Shown here one piece after another: positions 1-55,851 of a DNA stretch of 64,000 nucleotides. Under the pieces are notes generated by a model. The model ran no database searches, was not told where the DNA came from, and saw nothing but the letters and a program-made list of their open reading frames with translations. Position 1 is the stretch's first letter, and every line of letters begins with the position of its first letter. A program made the translations under genes and the position numbers. The stretch lies in assembly GCF_030219325.1 (NCBI RefSeq), contig NZ_CP126625.1:1352857-1416856 (forward strand). Direction: 5' to 3'. Origin of the DNA: Geothrix sp. (lineage in GTDB: Bacteria > Acidobacteriota > Holophagae > Holophagales > Holophagaceae).

Positions 1-1231
1 CCTGGTGGATGCCCTGAAGCGCCGCTGCCTGGTGACCTGCCGCCGGGTCTCCGAGGGCGGGCGCTGGCCCGATGACGACGAAGCCGGGCGCCTCGCGCGG
101 CTGGTGAAGGCCCTCAAGGGCAGGCCGCACTGGCTGGACCTGGAGTGGGACCTTCCGGTTCCCCCCGAGATCCAGGCGGCCCGCACCCACGTGCGCCTGC
201 TGCGCTCCATCCATGTGGCACCGGGCGTCTTCGACCTGGAGGCGCGGCTCCGGGACCTGCCCGACGGCGAGGCCTTCAAGTGGGTGGGCTGGGCGGGGCG
301 TCTGGGCGACAGCGGCCGGCTGCGGGCACCCCTGGCCTGGGCCCGGGATCACGGCTTGCGCCTCGCGGCCTTCCTCATGGGCCCCAAGGGCCTGCCCAGC
401 CGCGTGCTGCAAGCCGCCTGGGGCGGGGCCTTCACCTACGCAGCGCCGGACGACGGCCCCCCGGCCGCCCCGGGGCAGCTGCCCCTGGCCACCCTGCGGG
501 ACTGGCGCAGCGCCAGGCTGCATCCGGGTCATGGCCTCTGCGGCGTCATCGGCGATCCCGTCCTGCACTCCCGCGGGCCGGCCTTCCACAACCCACGCTT
601 CCAGTACGCCTTCAAGGACCTCGTGTACCTGCCCCTCGTCTGCGGCGAGGCGGAGGAGGCCGTCGAGGCCCTGGACGCCCTCGGCATCCTGGGCCTCAGC
701 ATCACCGCACCGCTGAAGCTGGCCCTGCCCCGGGCCCTCGGCCTGGCGGGCCCACTGAATACCCTCTGGCGCCGGGCGCCCGGCGCCCCCTGGCAGGGCG
801 CCAACACGGATGCCGAGGCCTTCGGACAGTCCCTGTCGAACCTGGCGCTGGGGCCCGTGCTGCTCCTCGGGGAAGGTGGCGTGGGCGCCACCAGCCGAGC
901 CGTATTGGAAGCCGCGGGGCGGCCCGTGCTCCAGGCCTCCCGCCGCGCCCCGGTGACGCCGGAGGCGGTGGCCGCTTTCGCGCCCGCGGGCCTCGTCCAG
1001 GCCACCAGCCTGGGCATGGCCCCCGATGATTCCGCGCCCTTTCCGGAGCTGCTGGAGGCGGCCCGCCCGAGCGCCCGCTGGGCCGTGGAGTGGATCTACA
1101 AGGAGGACACCGCCTTCGCCCTCTGGGCGCGGGAGGCGGGACTGTCGCTGGTGGCGGGCGCGGCCCTCTTCGAGGCCCAGGCCGAGGCCCAGAGCCGGCG
1201 CTTCATCGAGGGCTGCGGCGGCGCCAGTTGA
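1..1231 (+). CDS. aroDE: Bifunctional 3-dehydroquinate dehydratase / shikimate dehydrogenase (5' truncated)
   Basis: The N-terminal part resembles type I dehydroquinase: an IHV segment supplies the likely catalytic His and FKWVGWA the Schiff-base Lys. The C-terminal part is shikimate dehydrogenase: GDPVLHSRGPAFHN (shikimate binding), SITAPLK (catalytic Lys), GANTDAEAF and a GEGGVG nucleotide loop. Together they perform two consecutive shikimate-pathway steps in the cytoplasm. The frame is open at the left edge and the first visible residues match the middle of dehydroquinase, so about 50 or more N-terminal residues lie outside the window; the GTG at 5 is probably not the start. Fused AroD-AroE is best known from plants, chlamydiae and some other bacteria. 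Naming is confident; exact activity of each half is inferred. Confidence 0.88.
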   Translation, partial: LVDALKRRCLVTCRRVSEGGRWPDDDEAGRLARLVKALKGRPHWLDLEWDLPVPPEIQAARTHVRLLRSIHVAPGVFDLEARLRDLPDGEAFKWVGWAGRLGDSGRLRAPLAWARDHGLRLAAFLMGPKGLPSRVLQAAWGGAFTYAAPDDGPPAAPGQLPLATLRDWRSARLHPGHGLCGVIGDPVLHSRGPAFHNPRFQYAFKDLVYLPLVCGEAEEAVEALDALGILGLSITAPLKLALPRALGLAGPLNTLWRRAPGAPWQGANTDAEAFGQSLSNLALGPVLLLGEGGVGATSRAVLEAAGRPVLQASRRAPVTPEAVAAFAPAGLVQATSLGMAPDDSAPFPELLEAARPSARWAVEWIYKEDTAFALWAREAGLSLVAGAALFEAQAEAQSRRFIEGCGGAS

Positions 1232-1257
1232 ACCCGGATAGCTGCTAATTTCAACGC

Positions 1258-2544
1258 ATGGACCTCCTGCTGGTCGAGGACAAGGACAGCTTCCGGCGCC
1301 TGCTGAGCCAGGCTCTGGCGGGCTCGCTCTGGAAGGTCGAGGCCGTGGCCGATCCCCAGGCGGCGCTGCGGGCCCTGGAGGCCCGGCCCTTCCAGGTGCT
1401 GGTCACGGACCTGCGGCTGCCGGGCATGAGCGGCCTCGAGCTGATCCGCCGGGCCCGGCGCCTGCACCCCGCCCTGCGCGTGGTGCTCATGTCGGCATTC
1501 GGCGAACCGAAGGACATCGTCGAGGCCATGCGATTGGGCGCCGACGACTTCCTGCCCAAGCCCTTTGATCTCGACGCCTTCCTGGCCCTGCTGGACCGCC
1601 TGCGGGCCCTGGTGGGGGCGCCGCCGCCGGATCCAGCCGAACCCTGGATCGCGCACAGCCCCGCCATGCAGGCCCTGGACGCGACCCTGCGCCAGGCCGC
1701 CGCCGCCCGGCTGCCCGTGGTGTTCCGGGGCCCGCGCGGGACCGGCCGCGAGCGCAGCGCCCGCCGCCTCCACACCCTCCGCCACCCGGCCGCGCCCTAC
1801 CTGAGCCTGCCCGCGGCCACCCTGGGTCCCGAGGGGCCGGATCTCCCCACGCTGCAGCTCCTCGAAGGCGGCAGCCTCTTCCTGGGTGGGCTCGAGCACC
1901 TGGCCCCGGCCGCCGCCGGTCCCCTCGCCCGGACCATGGATGGCAACGCGGGGCGCCGCATCGACTGGATGGGGAGCATCGAGGCCGATGGGGTCCTGGC
2001 GCCCGAGGTCGCCCAGCGCCTGGGTTCGCTGGAGCTGCGGGTGCCGGCCCTGGTGGAACGCCGCGAGGACCTGCTGGCCCTCACCCGGCTGCTGCTGGAC
2101 CAGGCCGCCCGGCGGGAGGGACGCCCGACCCCGTGGCTGGAGCGTAGCGCCGAGCGCCAGCTGCTGGAGCACGCCTGGCCGGGCCACGTCCGCGAGCTGG
2201 AGGTGCTGGTGGGGCGGACCCTCCTGTTCTCCGAAGGCCGCGCCATCCGGACCTTCCCGGGCCTGGGCCTCGGGCTGGAGGCGCCCCTCTGCCTGGCCTG
2301 GCCCGAGCCGGGCGGGCTCGAGGCCATGCTCAAGACCGTGACCCGCTCCGCCGAGGCCCAGCTCCTGCTGCGGGCCATGGATCAGGGCGGCGGGGACCTG
2401 CCCCGGGCGGCCGAGGCCCTGGGGCTGACGGTGCGGACCCTGGCCCAGCGCTTGCGGGAGCACGCCATTCCTCTGGAAGATGGAGGCACCACCTCCGCGA
2501 GTCCGATCCTTGGCGAAGGCACGCCGTCCCGGAAGGCCCCATGA
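1258..2544 (+). CDS. NtrC-type response regulator with degenerate AAA+ domain
   Basis: Residues 1-120 form a receiver domain with the acidic pair E7/D8, phospho-acceptor D51 and K101 (FLPKPF). A central AAA+-like region and a C-terminal Fis-type helix-turn-helix (AAEALGLTVRTLAQRL) follow, the layout of sigma-54 activators. The ATPase is broken: Walker A reads GPRGTGRE (158-165), with Arg for the essential Lys, Walker B reads GGSLFLGGLE with D and E replaced by G210/G211, and the GAFTGA loop that touches sigma-54 is missing. It is therefore likely a phospho-controlled DNA-binding protein that does not drive sigma-54 open-complex formation. It overlaps the next gene by 4 bp (ATGA). Confidence 0.85.
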   Translation: MDLLLVEDKDSFRRLLSQALAGSLWKVEAVADPQAALRALEARPFQVLVTDLRLPGMSGLELIRRARRLHPALRVVLMSAFGEPKDIVEAMRLGADDFLPKPFDLDAFLALLDRLRALVGAPPPDPAEPWIAHSPAMQALDATLRQAAAARLPVVFRGPRGTGRERSARRLHTLRHPAAPYLSLPAATLGPEGPDLPTLQLLEGGSLFLGGLEHLAPAAAGPLARTMDGNAGRRIDWMGSIEADGVLAPEVAQRLGSLELRVPALVERREDLLALTRLLLDQAARREGRPTPWLERSAERQLLEHAWPGHVRELEVLVGRTLLFSEGRAIRTFPGLGLGLEAPLCLAWPEPGGLEAMLKTVTRSAEAQLLLRAMDQGGGDLPRAAEALGLTVRTLAQRLREHAIPLEDGGTTSASPILGEGTPSRKAP

Positions 2545-3509
2545 CCCAAGCCCCGCCCATCCTCATCCCCCCGGTCCGCAGCGCGGAGGGGATCCGTCCG
2601 GCCGCCCGGGCCGGCCTGACGGCCCTGCAGGCCGTGGTGGTGGGCAAGGAGGCCCAGGTGCGGCGCGCCTTCGCGGCCATGCTGGCCGGCGGCCACGTCC
2701 TGCTGGAGGACCTGCCTGGCGTGGGCAAGACCACCCTGGCCAAGGGCCTCTCCCGCATCCTGGGCGGCACCTTCCAGCGGGTGCAGGGCACCAACGACCT
2801 GCTGCCCTCGGACCTGCTGGGCGTGCACCTCTGGGATGCGAAGGAGCAGGGCTTCCGCTTCCAGCCCGGCCCCGTGTTCTGCCACGTGCTGCTGCTGGAC
2901 GAGCTGAACCGCATCGGCCCCAAGACCCAGAGCGCCATGCTCGAGGCCATGGTCGAAGGCCAGGTCACCCTGGATCGCAGCACCCACAAGCTGCCCGAGC
3001 CCTTCTTCGTCATCGCCACCCAGAATCCGCTGGATCACGCCGGCACCTTCCCCCTGCCCGAGAGCCAGCTGGATCGCTTCTCATGCACCATCCACCTGGG
3101 CTATCCGGATCGCGCGGCGGAGCGGCGCATCCTCACCGGGGAGGCCGGGGCCGAGCGGCTGGACACCCTGTTCCCCGTGCTCGACCTGGAGGGCTGGCGC
3201 CAGGCCCGCGCCGCGGTGCGGGCCGTGAAGGTGGCCGAGGCCGTGCTCGACTACGTGGAGCGCATGGTGGAGCGCATCCGCGCCGGGGGGGGCTTCTGCT
3301 CCACCCGCGCCGCCAAGCACTGGCTGGGCCTGGCCCAGGCCGAGGCCTGGCTGGACGGCCGCGACTTCATCACGCCGGACGACCTGCAGCGCACCCTCGC
3401 CGACACCATGGCGCATCGTGGCAGCCTGGATGACCGCCGCCTCAACCGCGGCGACCGGCGCGAGCAGCTGGCCCGCCTGCTCAAGGAACTGCCCGTGGGG
3501 TGGTCCTGA
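2541..3509 (+). CDS. MoxR-family AAA+ ATPase
   Basis: The 322-residue protein has Walker A (DLPGVGKTTLAKG), Walker B (HVLLLDELNRI), sensor 1 (IATQNP) and the MoxR signature ESQLDRF, followed by the C-terminal lid domain. MoxR ATPases act as chaperones that mature or activate partner proteins, commonly together with VWA-domain proteins and DUF58 proteins. No VWA or DUF58 partner is encoded next to it here; instead it is translationally coupled to the degenerate NtrC-like regulator before it and the RodZ-like protein after it (stop and start overlap by one base). Its client is unknown. Confidence 0.9.
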   Translation: MTQAPPILIPPVRSAEGIRPAARAGLTALQAVVVGKEAQVRRAFAAMLAGGHVLLEDLPGVGKTTLAKGLSRILGGTFQRVQGTNDLLPSDLLGVHLWDAKEQGFRFQPGPVFCHVLLLDELNRIGPKTQSAMLEAMVEGQVTLDRSTHKLPEPFFVIATQNPLDHAGTFPLPESQLDRFSCTIHLGYPDRAAERRILTGEAGAERLDTLFPVLDLEGWRQARAAVRAVKVAEAVLDYVERMVERIRAGGGFCSTRAAKHWLGLAQAEAWLDGRDFITPDDLQRTLADTMAHRGSLDDRRLNRGDRREQLARLLKELPVGWS

Positions 3510-4321
3510 TGCGGGAGGACGGGTCCGTCGGCCAGCTCATCCGCGAGGCCCGCGAAGCCCGGGGCCTGAGCCTCGAGGCCCTGGCCAAGGAACTCAAGCT
3601 GCCGGTGCGCCACCTGGAGGCCATCGAGGCCGACGACTGGGTGGCCCTGCCGCCCGGCCGCCCCCGGCCCCTGGCCCGGCAGCTGGCCGAGCGGCTCGGC
3701 GTGGACCTGGAGTTCCACACCGGGGCTTTCCAGATCGTGCCGGGCGTGCAGGAACTGGAACCGCCGGACCCCCGGCGCGAGCGGCTCGAGCGCATCGTGA
3801 TGGGCGCGCTCACCGGAACTTCGGTGATCGTGGTCCTGTGGCTGGTGGTGCCGGGGCCCAGCCTGGGCCACAAGCCCCCGCCCAGCTACCTCGTGGCGCT
3901 CAGCAGGCCCTCCCTGCCGCCCCCCCCGGCGCCCTCCGCCTCGCCCTATCCCGTCCTGGGGGAGCTCCTGCCCGAGGCGCCCGTGAACGAACAGGGTCTG
4001 CTGGTGAGCCTGCGGGCCATGGACACCGCCGACATCCGCATCGAGCCCCAGACCCCGGAAGGCGGCCTGCCCATGGTGCGCACCCTGCGCGTCTCGGAGG
4101 CCTGGCGGTTCCGGGTGAAGGGGGCCTTTCTCATCCGTGTCGAGAATGCCGGCGTGGTGAGCGTCGAGGTGGCCGGCCGCCGCATCCCCCATGGCCAGAG
4201 CGTCGGCGAGGGCTGGATTGGCACTTTCGACGGCGAGGGCCGCTGGCTCCGGCCGACCCAGCCTGAACTCCCGGACGAGCCCGTCGTTCCCGATGAAGAT
4301 GAGGAAGTCACCCGGCCATGA
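3509..4321 (+). CDS. RodZ-like HTH / single-pass membrane protein
   Basis: The N-terminal 70 residues form an Xre/HTH_25-type helix-turn-helix (GQLIREAREARGLSLEALA). One hydrophobic helix follows near residues 95-120, then a proline-rich linker and a C-terminal beta-rich domain resembling DUF4115 (RVSEAWRFRVKGAFLIRV). This is the architecture of RodZ, the membrane protein that links MreB to the cell-wall machinery. The ATG at 3509 overlaps the moxR stop and is preferred over the GTG at 3500. No mreBCD genes are visible, so a cytoskeletal role is an inference. The 3' end overlaps the next gene by 4 bp. Confidence 0.75.
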   Translation: MREDGSVGQLIREAREARGLSLEALAKELKLPVRHLEAIEADDWVALPPGRPRPLARQLAERLGVDLEFHTGAFQIVPGVQELEPPDPRRERLERIVMGALTGTSVIVVLWLVVPGPSLGHKPPPSYLVALSRPSLPPPPAPSASPYPVLGELLPEAPVNEQGLLVSLRAMDTADIRIEPQTPEGGLPMVRTLRVSEAWRFRVKGAFLIRVENAGVVSVEVAGRRIPHGQSVGEGWIGTFDGEGRWLRPTQPELPDEPVVPDEDEEVTRP

Positions 4322-53133: not shown

Positions 53134-53153
53134 GCGGGTTAACAAGATAAAGA

Positions 53154-55274
53154 GTGCCTGTGGCAACGAAGAAGACCATAGCAGACATGCATAACCTGGC
53201 CAGTCAGCACCCTGGCGGAGAGTGTATTTCCCCTCAGTACCTGGGTGATACCGGGAAGCTTCAATGGCGATGTGAGCATGGCCATGGCTTCCTTATGGCC
53301 CCAGGAAAGGTAAAAGCAGGCCAATGGTGCCCTCGATGTCGCGGGATGTATTCAACCATCGAAGACATGAAAGCCCTTGCCCGGCTTCACCCAGGTGGGG
53401 AATGTCTTTCAACCGAATTCCGGGGTAACAAAGTCCCCCTGATGTGGCGATGCGAAAAGGGCCATGAATGGGACATGCCCCCCGAATATGTGAAATCAGG
53501 GTGCTGGTGTCCACATTGCCAAGGTCGAAGGGCCACCATTGAAAAGTTGCAGAAGTGTGCGCTCGAACGAGGTGGGAAGTGCCTTTCTCCCGAATACCTT
53601 GGAACCCAGGCTCATCACCTTTGGGAGTGCTCATCAGGCCACTCATGGCGAGCGACTGCCAGCAATGTTCTTCGGGGTAGTTGGTGCCCGGTATGCAGCA
53701 GAACCGTGCGAAAAACCATTGATGAAATGAAGAACTTGGCAAAGGCGCGAGGGGGAGAATGCCTCTCGGAGGTCTACAAGAACAAGGATGCCAAACTCCG
53801 CTGGAAATGTTCTGAAGGGCATGAATGGGAGACCAGCTCTGCACCGGTTAGAAAGGGATCGTGGTGCCCCCACTGTGCAGGGACAGCTCGAAAATCTATG
53901 CAGGACATGCATGATCTCGCGAGTCTCCATCCAGGCGGGGAATGTATCTCTACTGAATATTTGGGTGACACTGGGAAATTGTGGTGGCGGTGTGAGAAGG
54001 GCCACGAATGGGACATGGCCCCAGGAGCGGTAAAGGCTGGGCACTGGTGCCCGCTTTGTCGTGGCAAACGAGCAAATATTGAGAAGCTCCAACTCCTAGC
54101 CGCCGAAAGAGGAGGGCGCTGCCTTTCACCAAAGTATCTAGGTGCTCTGAGCCATCACCTCTGGGAGTGCAACAAGGGTCATTCCTGGAGCGCCGCCGTC
54201 AACAATATTGTAACTGGCTACTGGTGTCCGGAGTGTGCAGGGAACCGCCGTTTGACCATTGAAATGGTTCGTGCTTTTGCCCGCGAGAAGGGCGGTGAGT
54301 GCCTCTCCGACTCATATCAGAACAACTCAGATCATCTTAGCTGGCGATGTAACGAAGGCCATGAATGGAGCACAGGCTTTGGCAGCATTCAGCAGGGATC
54401 TTGGTGTCCAAAGTGCTCTGGAGTGGGCAGAATCACCATCGAGGAGCTTAAGGATCTCGCACGACTGAGAGGCGGAGAGTGCCTTTCGGATCAAGTCGAA
54501 TCTGGTGATAGACACCTTCGTTGGAGGTGCTCTGACGGACACGAATGGATGGCTAGTCCATTCTCGATCAAGAGGGGGTCTTGGTGTCCAGAATGTTCAG
54601 CAGGCATTTCTGAACGCGCTTGCCGAGCAATATTGGAACAATTGTTAAATGTCCCTTTCAAAAAATCTCCGCTTGGCAGAATTCCATGGCTGAAAAATAG
54701 CCGTGGGAAAGCCATGGAACTTGACGGGTATTCTTCCCAACTAGCGCTTGCATTTGAGTACCACGGAAGACAGCACTACGAGTTTCTCCCTCACTTCCAT
54801 CGCAATGAGAACGCTCTACAACGCCGAAAGGAGGATGACGAAACCAAACTGGCTCTCTGCGAACAGCACGGAGTTCGACTAATTGTTGTTCCCTACTGGA
54901 TCGAACTTGAGGAAATGGAACTCTTCCTTCGGAGGGTTCTCGAAGAACTAGGGATTTACTGTGCCCCAGGCCCTCCCATCTCGATCGAATCAATAAGTGA
55001 AGCCATCTACTCTCGAAATCGAATCGAGGGCCTCCGGAAGCTAGCTCAAGAGCGGGGAGGGACTCTGCTTTCCGAGACCTATCTTGGCTTCACCCGAAAT
55101 CACCGCTTTCGGTGCGCTCAGGGTCATGAATGGTCAACTTCCCCAGCGACCTTGAAAACCGGGGCCTGGTGCAAACGATGCAGCCAAGGTCAAGCTTGGA
55201 GCCGTCGAAGGATCGAGAAGGCCCGCCTAGCTCCAGGCGACCAACCTCGACTATTAGAAGAAGAGCCCCTGTAG
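53154..55274 (+). CDS. Zinc-ribbon-repeat protein with restriction-endonuclease-like domain
   Basis: The 706-residue protein starts at GTG 53154 (or 53160) with a weak ribosome site, 20 bases after the dehydrogenase stop. Residues 6-484 hold eight repeats of about 59 residues, each with W-x-C-x-x-GH-x-W and WCP-x-C, the zinc-ribbon (DUF4379-type) pattern. Residues about 485-605 look like a Vsr/PD-(D/E)xK nuclease: ELDGY (D524), FEYHGRQHYE (E535, Q540), then K565 before an IVVPYW strand. A ninth, poorer zinc ribbon follows (about 618-680). Composition is far more AT-rich than neighbours, suggesting transfer. It may be a DNA-targeting or defence nuclease; function unproven. Confidence 0.78.
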   Translation: MPVATKKTIADMHNLASQHPGGECISPQYLGDTGKLQWRCEHGHGFLMAPGKVKAGQWCPRCRGMYSTIEDMKALARLHPGGECLSTEFRGNKVPLMWRCEKGHEWDMPPEYVKSGCWCPHCQGRRATIEKLQKCALERGGKCLSPEYLGTQAHHLWECSSGHSWRATASNVLRGSWCPVCSRTVRKTIDEMKNLAKARGGECLSEVYKNKDAKLRWKCSEGHEWETSSAPVRKGSWCPHCAGTARKSMQDMHDLASLHPGGECISTEYLGDTGKLWWRCEKGHEWDMAPGAVKAGHWCPLCRGKRANIEKLQLLAAERGGRCLSPKYLGALSHHLWECNKGHSWSAAVNNIVTGYWCPECAGNRRLTIEMVRAFAREKGGECLSDSYQNNSDHLSWRCNEGHEWSTGFGSIQQGSWCPKCSGVGRITIEELKDLARLRGGECLSDQVESGDRHLRWRCSDGHEWMASPFSIKRGSWCPECSAGISERACRAILEQLLNVPFKKSPLGRIPWLKNSRGKAMELDGYSSQLALAFEYHGRQHYEFLPHFHRNENALQRRKEDDETKLALCEQHGVRLIVVPYWIELEEMELFLRRVLEELGIYCAPGPPISIESISEAIYSRNRIEGLRKLAQERGGTLLSETYLGFTRNHRFRCAQGHEWSTSPATLKTGAWCKRCSQGQAWSRRRIEKARLAPGDQPRLLEEEPL

Positions 55275-55742
55275 CGGCCACAGGCTCTATCGGCCAAGAG
55301 ATCCTATAAAGGTGAAATTCTGTTAGGCAGGCAACATGCTATTGTTGTAATAGTAAGAATTGCTATGGATTAAATTGTAAATGACCGCTCAGCTCGCCAA
55401 ATGGATAGCCCAGGTCTATGGGGCTACAGGCTATCTACAGCGCCTATACAAGGGACTCAAAGACCCATTACAGAGAGAACGAGCTGAAGCTGCTGGTGCA
55501 TAGCCCATCCCATGACAGCCATATGAACCCACAGTAAGAGCGTCCTCCTACTGTCTACCTGCAATCGAGCGACCTGGTGGAGAGCGCCTCACCACGCCAG
55601 ATCGCCAGGTTTGTATTACAGGTTGTATTACAGGGTCGCCACCGCCGAATTCCCTTAGTCTGGCTTAACCTTCTCTTGAATTAGCGTATTACACCCACTT
55701 GAAATTGATTAATTATTGGTTCGTTAAATAAATACAAAAATA
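55275..55742. other. AT-rich gap beside the zinc-ribbon nuclease
   Basis: Nearly 470 bases without a gene. It contains a perfect tandem repeat of TTGTATTACAGG (55611-55622 and 55623-55634) and an imperfect inverted repeat just before it (GCGACCTGG-TGG / CCACGCCAGATCGC, about 55569-55606). These could be remnants of an attachment or mobility site; no integrase gene is visible. Confidence 0.45.
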
Positions 55743-55766
55743 CCTCTAGATGTTTGAATCTAGAGG
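55743..55766 (-). terminator. Terminator after tRNA-Ala
   Basis: CCTCTAGAT / ATCTAGAGG stem with GTTTGA loop, followed on the minus strand by TATTTTTG. Confidence 0.85.
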
Positions 55767-55775
55767 CATTTAAGT

Positions 55776-55851
55776 TGGTGGACCTGATCAGGATCGAACT
55801 GACGACCTCTGCATTGCGAACGCAGCGCTCTCCCAGCTGAGCTACAGGCCC
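55776..55851 (-). tRNA. tRNA-Ala (anticodon CGC)
   Basis: The minus strand reads GGGCCTG...CAGGTCCACCA. Anticodon arm CTGCG-TTCGCAA-TGCAG gives anticodon CGC, and the D-arm (GTAGCTCAGCTGGGAGAGC) and GTTCGATC T-arm are canonical. CCA is encoded. It decodes GCG. Confidence 0.95.

Follow-up and report, generated by a model that had tools for sequence, protein, structure and literature searches.

How a gene for nine zinc ribbons and a nuclease-like domain came to lie in an AT-rich islet of a Geothrix chromosome, and what its product does, is the question raised by this locus. The window, the whole 64,000-nucleotide stretch that was analyzed, holds at positions 53154-55274 of the forward strand one intact open reading frame of 706 amino acids (ORF list and translation), which is single copy in its own 3.73-Mb genome. 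The answer developed below, judged probable though well short of certain, is a long-site DNA endonuclease of a homing lineage that is carried as island cargo. The computed domain content of the gene is as follows.

53160..55274, + strand: zinc-ribbon array/Vsr-like endonuclease gene (ORF-list start GTG 53154; L006-conserved start GTG 53160)
53166..54599, + strand: eight tandem DUF4379-type C-H-C-C zinc ribbons (period about 60 aa; Pfam DUF4379; ribbon model pLDDT 93)
54606..54983, + strand: Vsr/EDxHD-like nuclease domain, aa 485-610 (conserved E487, D524, E535, G538, Q540, H541, D562, K565)
55020..55205, + strand: ninth zinc ribbon, C-terminal to the nuclease (motif and structure model)

Start codon and coding constraint

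A reading made from the sequence only had placed the start of the gene at GTG 53154. The closest relative of the gene, L006, 74% identical and carried by a Holophagaceae MAG of the same genus, begins VATKK... at the codon equivalent to window position 53160, and nucleotide similarity between the two copies starts at 53152. This points to GTG 53160, two codons later, as the probable true start of a 704-aa protein. Residues are numbered throughout on the 706-aa ORF from GTG 53154.

The GC3 of the gene is 0.53 versus 0.91-0.94 in the two genes upstream. Between the window and L006 copies, dN is 0.19 for the whole gene, with 0.21 in the nuclease domain versus 0.18 in the ribbon array; because synonymous sites are saturated, a dN/dS ratio is not computable. 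Judged against L006, the gene is under purifying selection, and the constraint on array and nuclease is similar.

Zinc-ribbon array

The nine ribbons take the form C-x-x-G-H-x-[WF] ... W-C-x-x-C and lie at residues 40, 100, 159, 219, 280, 339, 399, 459, and 654. The nuclease-like stretch is placed between ribbons 8 and 9, and the motif positions confirm the arrangement of eight ribbons, nuclease, and ninth ribbon that had been seen in the translation. In the DUF4379 profile search that the sequence-only reading had proposed, Pfam DUF4379 scores nine separate stretches of the protein (E 9.3e-40), so the array is not a chance pattern. Pfam CapR also matches (E 9e-7); a literature search on CapR as a zinc ribbon returned nothing useful.

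The closest pairs of units include 1/5 (70%) and 3/6 (60%), and their likeness suggests block duplication within the array. Each ribbon retains its own identity versus L006 (40-51 of 60 residues per unit), and the units differ among themselves. Some ribbon columns vary between ribbons but stay conserved between the window and L006 orthologs, a pattern that is compatible with base reading by the ribbons but is no proof of it. Taken as DNA grips, the ribbon arrays agree with the NUMOD idea put forward for phage homing endonucleases (PMC3943268; PMC12350094).

A three-ribbon model has no strong match among solved structures, and RNA binding by the ribbons is therefore possible as well. The best solved matches of this model (mf86e6da45766, aa 3-182) are trypanosome mitoribosome assembly proteins (6yxx_E2, Z 4.8, the best; 7pua_Fd, 24% identity over 55 residues, Z 4.3), which hint, weakly, at RNA-binding relatives of the ribbon.

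Nuclease domain

The stretch between ribbons 8 and 9 had been taken for a Vsr/PD-(D/E)xK-like nuclease, and the Vsr half of this assignment is supported by modeling. In VIA-align, a structure model of aa 443-706 (AlphaFold, pLDDT 89) superposes on Vsr (1cw0, Z 9.8, 3.0 Å over 106 residues) and on I-Bth0305I (3r3p, Z 9.1, 3.4 Å over 95 residues), with Z-scores above most of the structure-match list; structure prediction, named beforehand as the check that could overturn a nuclease fold, did not overturn it. In PDB Foldseek alone, 3r3p ranks tenth with a weak E-value. The nuclease sequence, as single sequence or profile, gives chance-level matches only to solved structures, and Pfam Vsr (PF03852) has no match in the protein up to E 1. 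The predicted Vsr-like fold is drawn from VIA-align, conservation, and homology, with weak Foldseek E-values.

Computed residue conservation gives seven invariant columns among 13 relatives, namely E487, D524, E535, G538, Q540, H541, and D562. In 75 non-redundant relatives, D524 is conserved at 100%, K565 at 97%, and E487 and D562 at 96% each. E535, G538, Q540, and H541 also reach 100%, all four within the pattern that scanned the viral contigs, which inflates the conservation of E535, Q540, and H541; D524 and K565 lie outside it. D524, E535, Q540, and K565, which had been singled out from the translation, are thus present as numbered and conserved in relatives, and homologs that lack D524, E535, or K565 are not the rule.

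The other half of the assignment, a canonical PD-(D/E)xK triad, does not hold. E535-Y536-H537 stands where (D/E)xK is expected, with K565 in the following helix, which argues for the EDxHD/Vsr type rather than a textbook PD-(D/E)xK nuclease. The E-D-H-D order is matched by E487-D524-H541-D562, a set that fits the EDxHD/Vsr type when mapped by order and predicted fold. The active site of Vsr is marked by an Asp51-His69 pair (PMC11879112), to which D524 and H541 would correspond.

Vsr (1CW0, 1VSR) is the best fold match, yet it has no zinc array, and the window gene has neither a Pfam Vsr match nor a methyltransferase partner; a methyltransferase stands near the G002 relative described below, not near the window gene. 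I-Bth0305I (PDB 3R3P) shares the predicted fold and has E-D-H-D residues in the same order, but identity over the aligned fold is 15%, there is no sequence-level PDB match, and the two are compared by the nuclease fold alone.

Relatives in phages and other viruses

That the protein was of an uncharacterized kind, as had been supposed, needs partial correction. PHROG_559, a family of phage genes that holds homing endonucleases, covers aa 327-600 of the protein (E 7e-116); its library label “HNH endonuclease” does not fit the domain. PHROG 559 occurs in terminase introns of Bastillevirinae with a VSR signature (PMC11878797). Merk, Jones & Eddy described in 2025 phage introns that encode 3-5 CapR/DUF4379/DUF723-like modules followed by an EDxHD/Vsr-like domain, and reported thousands of UniProt hits (PMC12350094). 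Their phage endonucleases and the window protein share tandem ~60-aa CapR/DUF4379-related zinc modules and a ~100-aa EDxHD/Vsr-related nuclease. The phage proteins have 3-5 modules and a C-terminal nuclease and lie inside group I/II introns, whereas the window protein has eight modules, the nuclease, and a ninth module, and is encoded outside any intron on a bacterial chromosome as integrative-element cargo. C-terminal placement of the nuclease, a descriptive trait of the phage members, is broken by the ninth ribbon here and likewise in several bacterial relatives. The two-module design is already known from phage introns; layout, array length, and setting differ here.

The protein matches 340 phage records, many labeled homing endonucleases, and the nuclease alone matches a “group I intron-associated VSR homing endonuclease” within the terminase gene of Staphylococcus phage KSAP7. 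Free-standing phage relatives sit between tail genes or beside ribonucleotide reductase, and both positions are typical homing sites. Relatives are encoded in at least 421 stretches of viral contigs, with 1-6 ribbons N-terminal to the nuclease where ribbons are recognized.

Giant-virus zinc-ribbon proteins head the matches in a viral structure library (BFVD; E about 1e-22), which also include phage homing endonucleases. Aligned with the ribbon-nuclease-ribbon model in about 240 columns, the giant-virus proteins (Yasminevirus, Klosneuvirus, and others) show 31-36% identity; they come from genomes of eukaryotic viruses. The tree of the short nuclease domain is poorly resolved, with bacterial and viral rows intermixed. 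The idea that the bacterial nucleases form one clade was rejected, the labels being scattered on this tree.

Islet and integrative element

53134..55775, no strand: whole low-GC islet, from the acyl-CoA dehydrogenase gene to tRNA-Ala (GC profile; comparison with relatives)
55605..55775, no strand: right end of a decayed integrative element (86% identity to the G062 right end; GTATTAC repeats)
55776..55851, - strand: tRNA-Ala(CGC), whose 3′ end is the attachment site of related elements

The AT-rich islet in a GC-rich genome, already remarked on, is borne out by 1-kb GC values of 0.52-0.56 versus about 0.69 around it. The closest relative (G013, 90% DNA identity) has about 243 unrelated bases at the islet position and no copy of the gene there, and other congeners hold other genes.

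The element remnant was computed by a search with the islet 3′ flank. At 86% identity, window positions 55605-55771 match DNA of the congener G062, where an element abuts the same tRNA-Ala with its right end. On the matching left contig of G062, 45 bp of the tRNA 3′ end recur exactly, and the C-terminus of a tyrosine recombinase comes next; in G020 the copied stretch of the tRNA 3′ end is 48 bp long, and a tyrosine integrase gene follows it. Three GTATTAC repeats lie in the right end of the islet (55613, 55625, and 55686), and repeats of this type occur in both G062 ends and in the window islet (P about 0.001, mononucleotide shuffle). They are candidate integrase arm sites.

No second tRNA 3′-end (att) copy was found near the islet, including its left edge, and the ORF list contains no integrase in it, so the islet is read as an element remnant. 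Given the likeness to the G062 right end, the gene would have arrived as cargo of an integrative element whose insertion point is the tRNA-Ala(CGC) 3′ end. Integrase and far attachment copy would later have been lost from this element, while the gene and the right end stayed next to the tRNA. A mobile origin of the gene is well supported by this comparison, which sustains the mobile part of the earlier proposal of a solitary defense or mobile nuclease. Direct repeats flanking the islet were not found beyond the internal zinc repeats, and the islet 3′ flank gave no match to plasmids. An intron of group I or II, or any further known RNA in this place, was rejected: only the tRNA was detected, plus a sub-threshold Rfam match.

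Proposed activity

The protein would cut DNA in a metal-dependent manner, as a member of the EDxHD/Vsr lineage of homing endonucleases. For DNA binding, cleavage, target, and benefit alike, we infer the following. The nine ribbons would hold a long stretch of target DNA over an extended surface and position the Vsr-like domain embedded among them, which would cut or nick the DNA via E487, D524, H541, and D562; E535, Q540, and K565 are also near-invariant beside this proposed catalytic set. The basic activity of the lineage would be homing-type cutting that favors its own spread. The window copy would most likely be a mobile cargo nuclease that no longer homes at its present site.

On this reading, a homing-endonuclease type recognized in phage introns in 2025 would extend to bacterial chromosomes, plasmids, and defense-rich islands, with as many as ten modules surrounding the nuclease in bacterial arrays. 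If each ribbon reads a few bases, the number and order of ribbons would set the target, making the array a natural modular DNA reader. The DNA alone would also record how the gene came to this place and was left behind, as cargo of a tRNA-Ala element.

Bacterial relatives and a possible role in defense

The gene is patchy, occurring in 4 of 396 genomes of the phylum. Architectures and neighbors of relatives, listed as the sequence-only reading had proposed, show the nuclease embedded in several bacterial arrays. Counting ribbons N-terminal plus C-terminal of the nuclease, the layouts among bacterial and plasmid relatives are 8+1 (window and L006), 7+3 (L007), 4+3 (L106), 3+3 (L105), 3+4 (G002), and 2+3 (L205). 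The L006 relative is similar across the gene only (53152-55267), with no shared flank and no adjoining tRNA; since its setting differs, the gene itself has moved between contexts. Copies in the genus lie at unrelated sites, unlike the outcome expected of homing into one conserved site. The L205 relative (positions 40-4163, G754), in which two ribbons precede the nuclease and three follow it, ends at a distance of 39 bp from an apparent ribonucleotide reductase gene. Ribonucleotide reductase is a classic homing neighbor.

Bacterial relatives with the nuclease often stand among defense genes. The L006 relative lies 48 bp downstream of a PDDEXK_4 gene that matches PADLOC PDC-S26, with PDC-S14 nearby; in L007, a PDC-S26 match lies at a distance of 1.1 kb. 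Nearby genes in other loci are a type III REase (L106), PDC-S31 (L108), and a SoFic-like gene (L109). The G002 relative lies between Vsr-Dcm and PDC-M26A/PDDEXK_7 genes and Tn7-like TnsB/TnsC genes. This locus (L197, 1386-13775) encodes Vsr, a cytosine methyltransferase, a PDDEXK_7/AAA pair, the query relative, and TnsA/B- and TnsC-like genes, and is apparently a Tn7-like element with defense cargo.

These neighborhoods raise the alternative that fares best, a nuclease of defense or inter-element interference, whose array would recognize DNA of phages or competing elements for destruction and which would be selected as island cargo. The purifying selection on the gene relative to L006 is in keeping with it, and homing-type nucleases are used in the conflict of Vibrio phage ICP1 with its satellite (PMC10448857; PMC8263062). 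However, no defense gene adjoins the window copy, and the protein matches zero PADLOC 2.0.0 families up to E 1. The neighbors of relatives are raw counts, called in part by candidate models that are broad. PDDEXK_4 as a fixed partner was rejected, as it is present in only 2 of about nine loci, and no other partner recurs. A defense role is suggested by the neighborhoods of relatives only, and we regard interference as a tentative reading, with a chance clearly below that of homing-lineage cargo. Fainter still is the prospect that the phage homing endonucleases have a bacterial branch, with the nuclease embedded in a lengthened zinc array, that turned into a solitary, modular, sequence-reading interference nuclease, borne by islands to act on competing elements and directed to its target by ribbon order.

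Unlikely readings: homing at the present site, binding without cleavage

An active free-standing homing gene that targets the tRNA-Ala/acyl-CoA dehydrogenase junction itself is improbable. Closely related genomes do lack the gene at the tRNA-Ala site, phage relatives are free-standing homing genes, and tRNA genes offer conserved targets. However, the likeness of the right end to an element that carries an integrase explains the insertion without homing; the L006 relative has neither an adjacent tRNA nor a shared flank, and the gene stands at the tRNA-Ala site in the window genome only, among the genus genomes examined.

It is very improbable that the protein only binds nucleic acid, perhaps RNA or in a regulatory role, with an inactive or incidental nuclease domain: RNA binding without cleavage is known from Vsr-like proteins, FASTKD4 among them (PMC11879112), nuclease-less ribbon arrays are common in Burkholderiaceae, and the weak ribbon matches are mitoribosome assembly proteins, but every predicted catalytic position is intact and near-invariant in relatives, and the nuclease domain is constrained like the array.

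Nuclease-less arrays of five to eight DUF4379-like units were observed in L008, L010, L014, L015, L016, L017, L018, and L029, mostly from Burkholderiaceae. The bacterial genomes with such arrays that were tested have no such nuclease elsewhere in the genome.

Further observations at the tRNA-Ala site

Within the genus, the 3′ flank of tRNA-Ala(CGC) is a hot spot for insertions (window 55776-55851; L092-L103, L211, and L212). G020 and G062 have integrase elements there with 45-48 bp tRNA copies, and other relatives have unrelated genes. In several relatives, a spacer of ~165 bp adjoins the tRNA; its first 19-21 bp repeat the tRNA 3′ end, and a GGCGGCCCGGAGACCGCC-like hairpin lies within it. The spacer, which may be a small repeat element or the scar of a former attachment, has the following positions.

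L092, 2539-2706: ~165-bp tRNA-side spacer
L093, 2220-2387: ~165-bp tRNA-side spacer
L094, 2273-2439: ~165-bp tRNA-side spacer
L096, 544-709: ~165-bp tRNA-side spacer
L097, 600-767: ~165-bp tRNA-side spacer

Between the islet and tRNA-Ala, a 14-bp inverted repeat at window positions 55738-55771, also present in G062, could act as a terminator in both directions.
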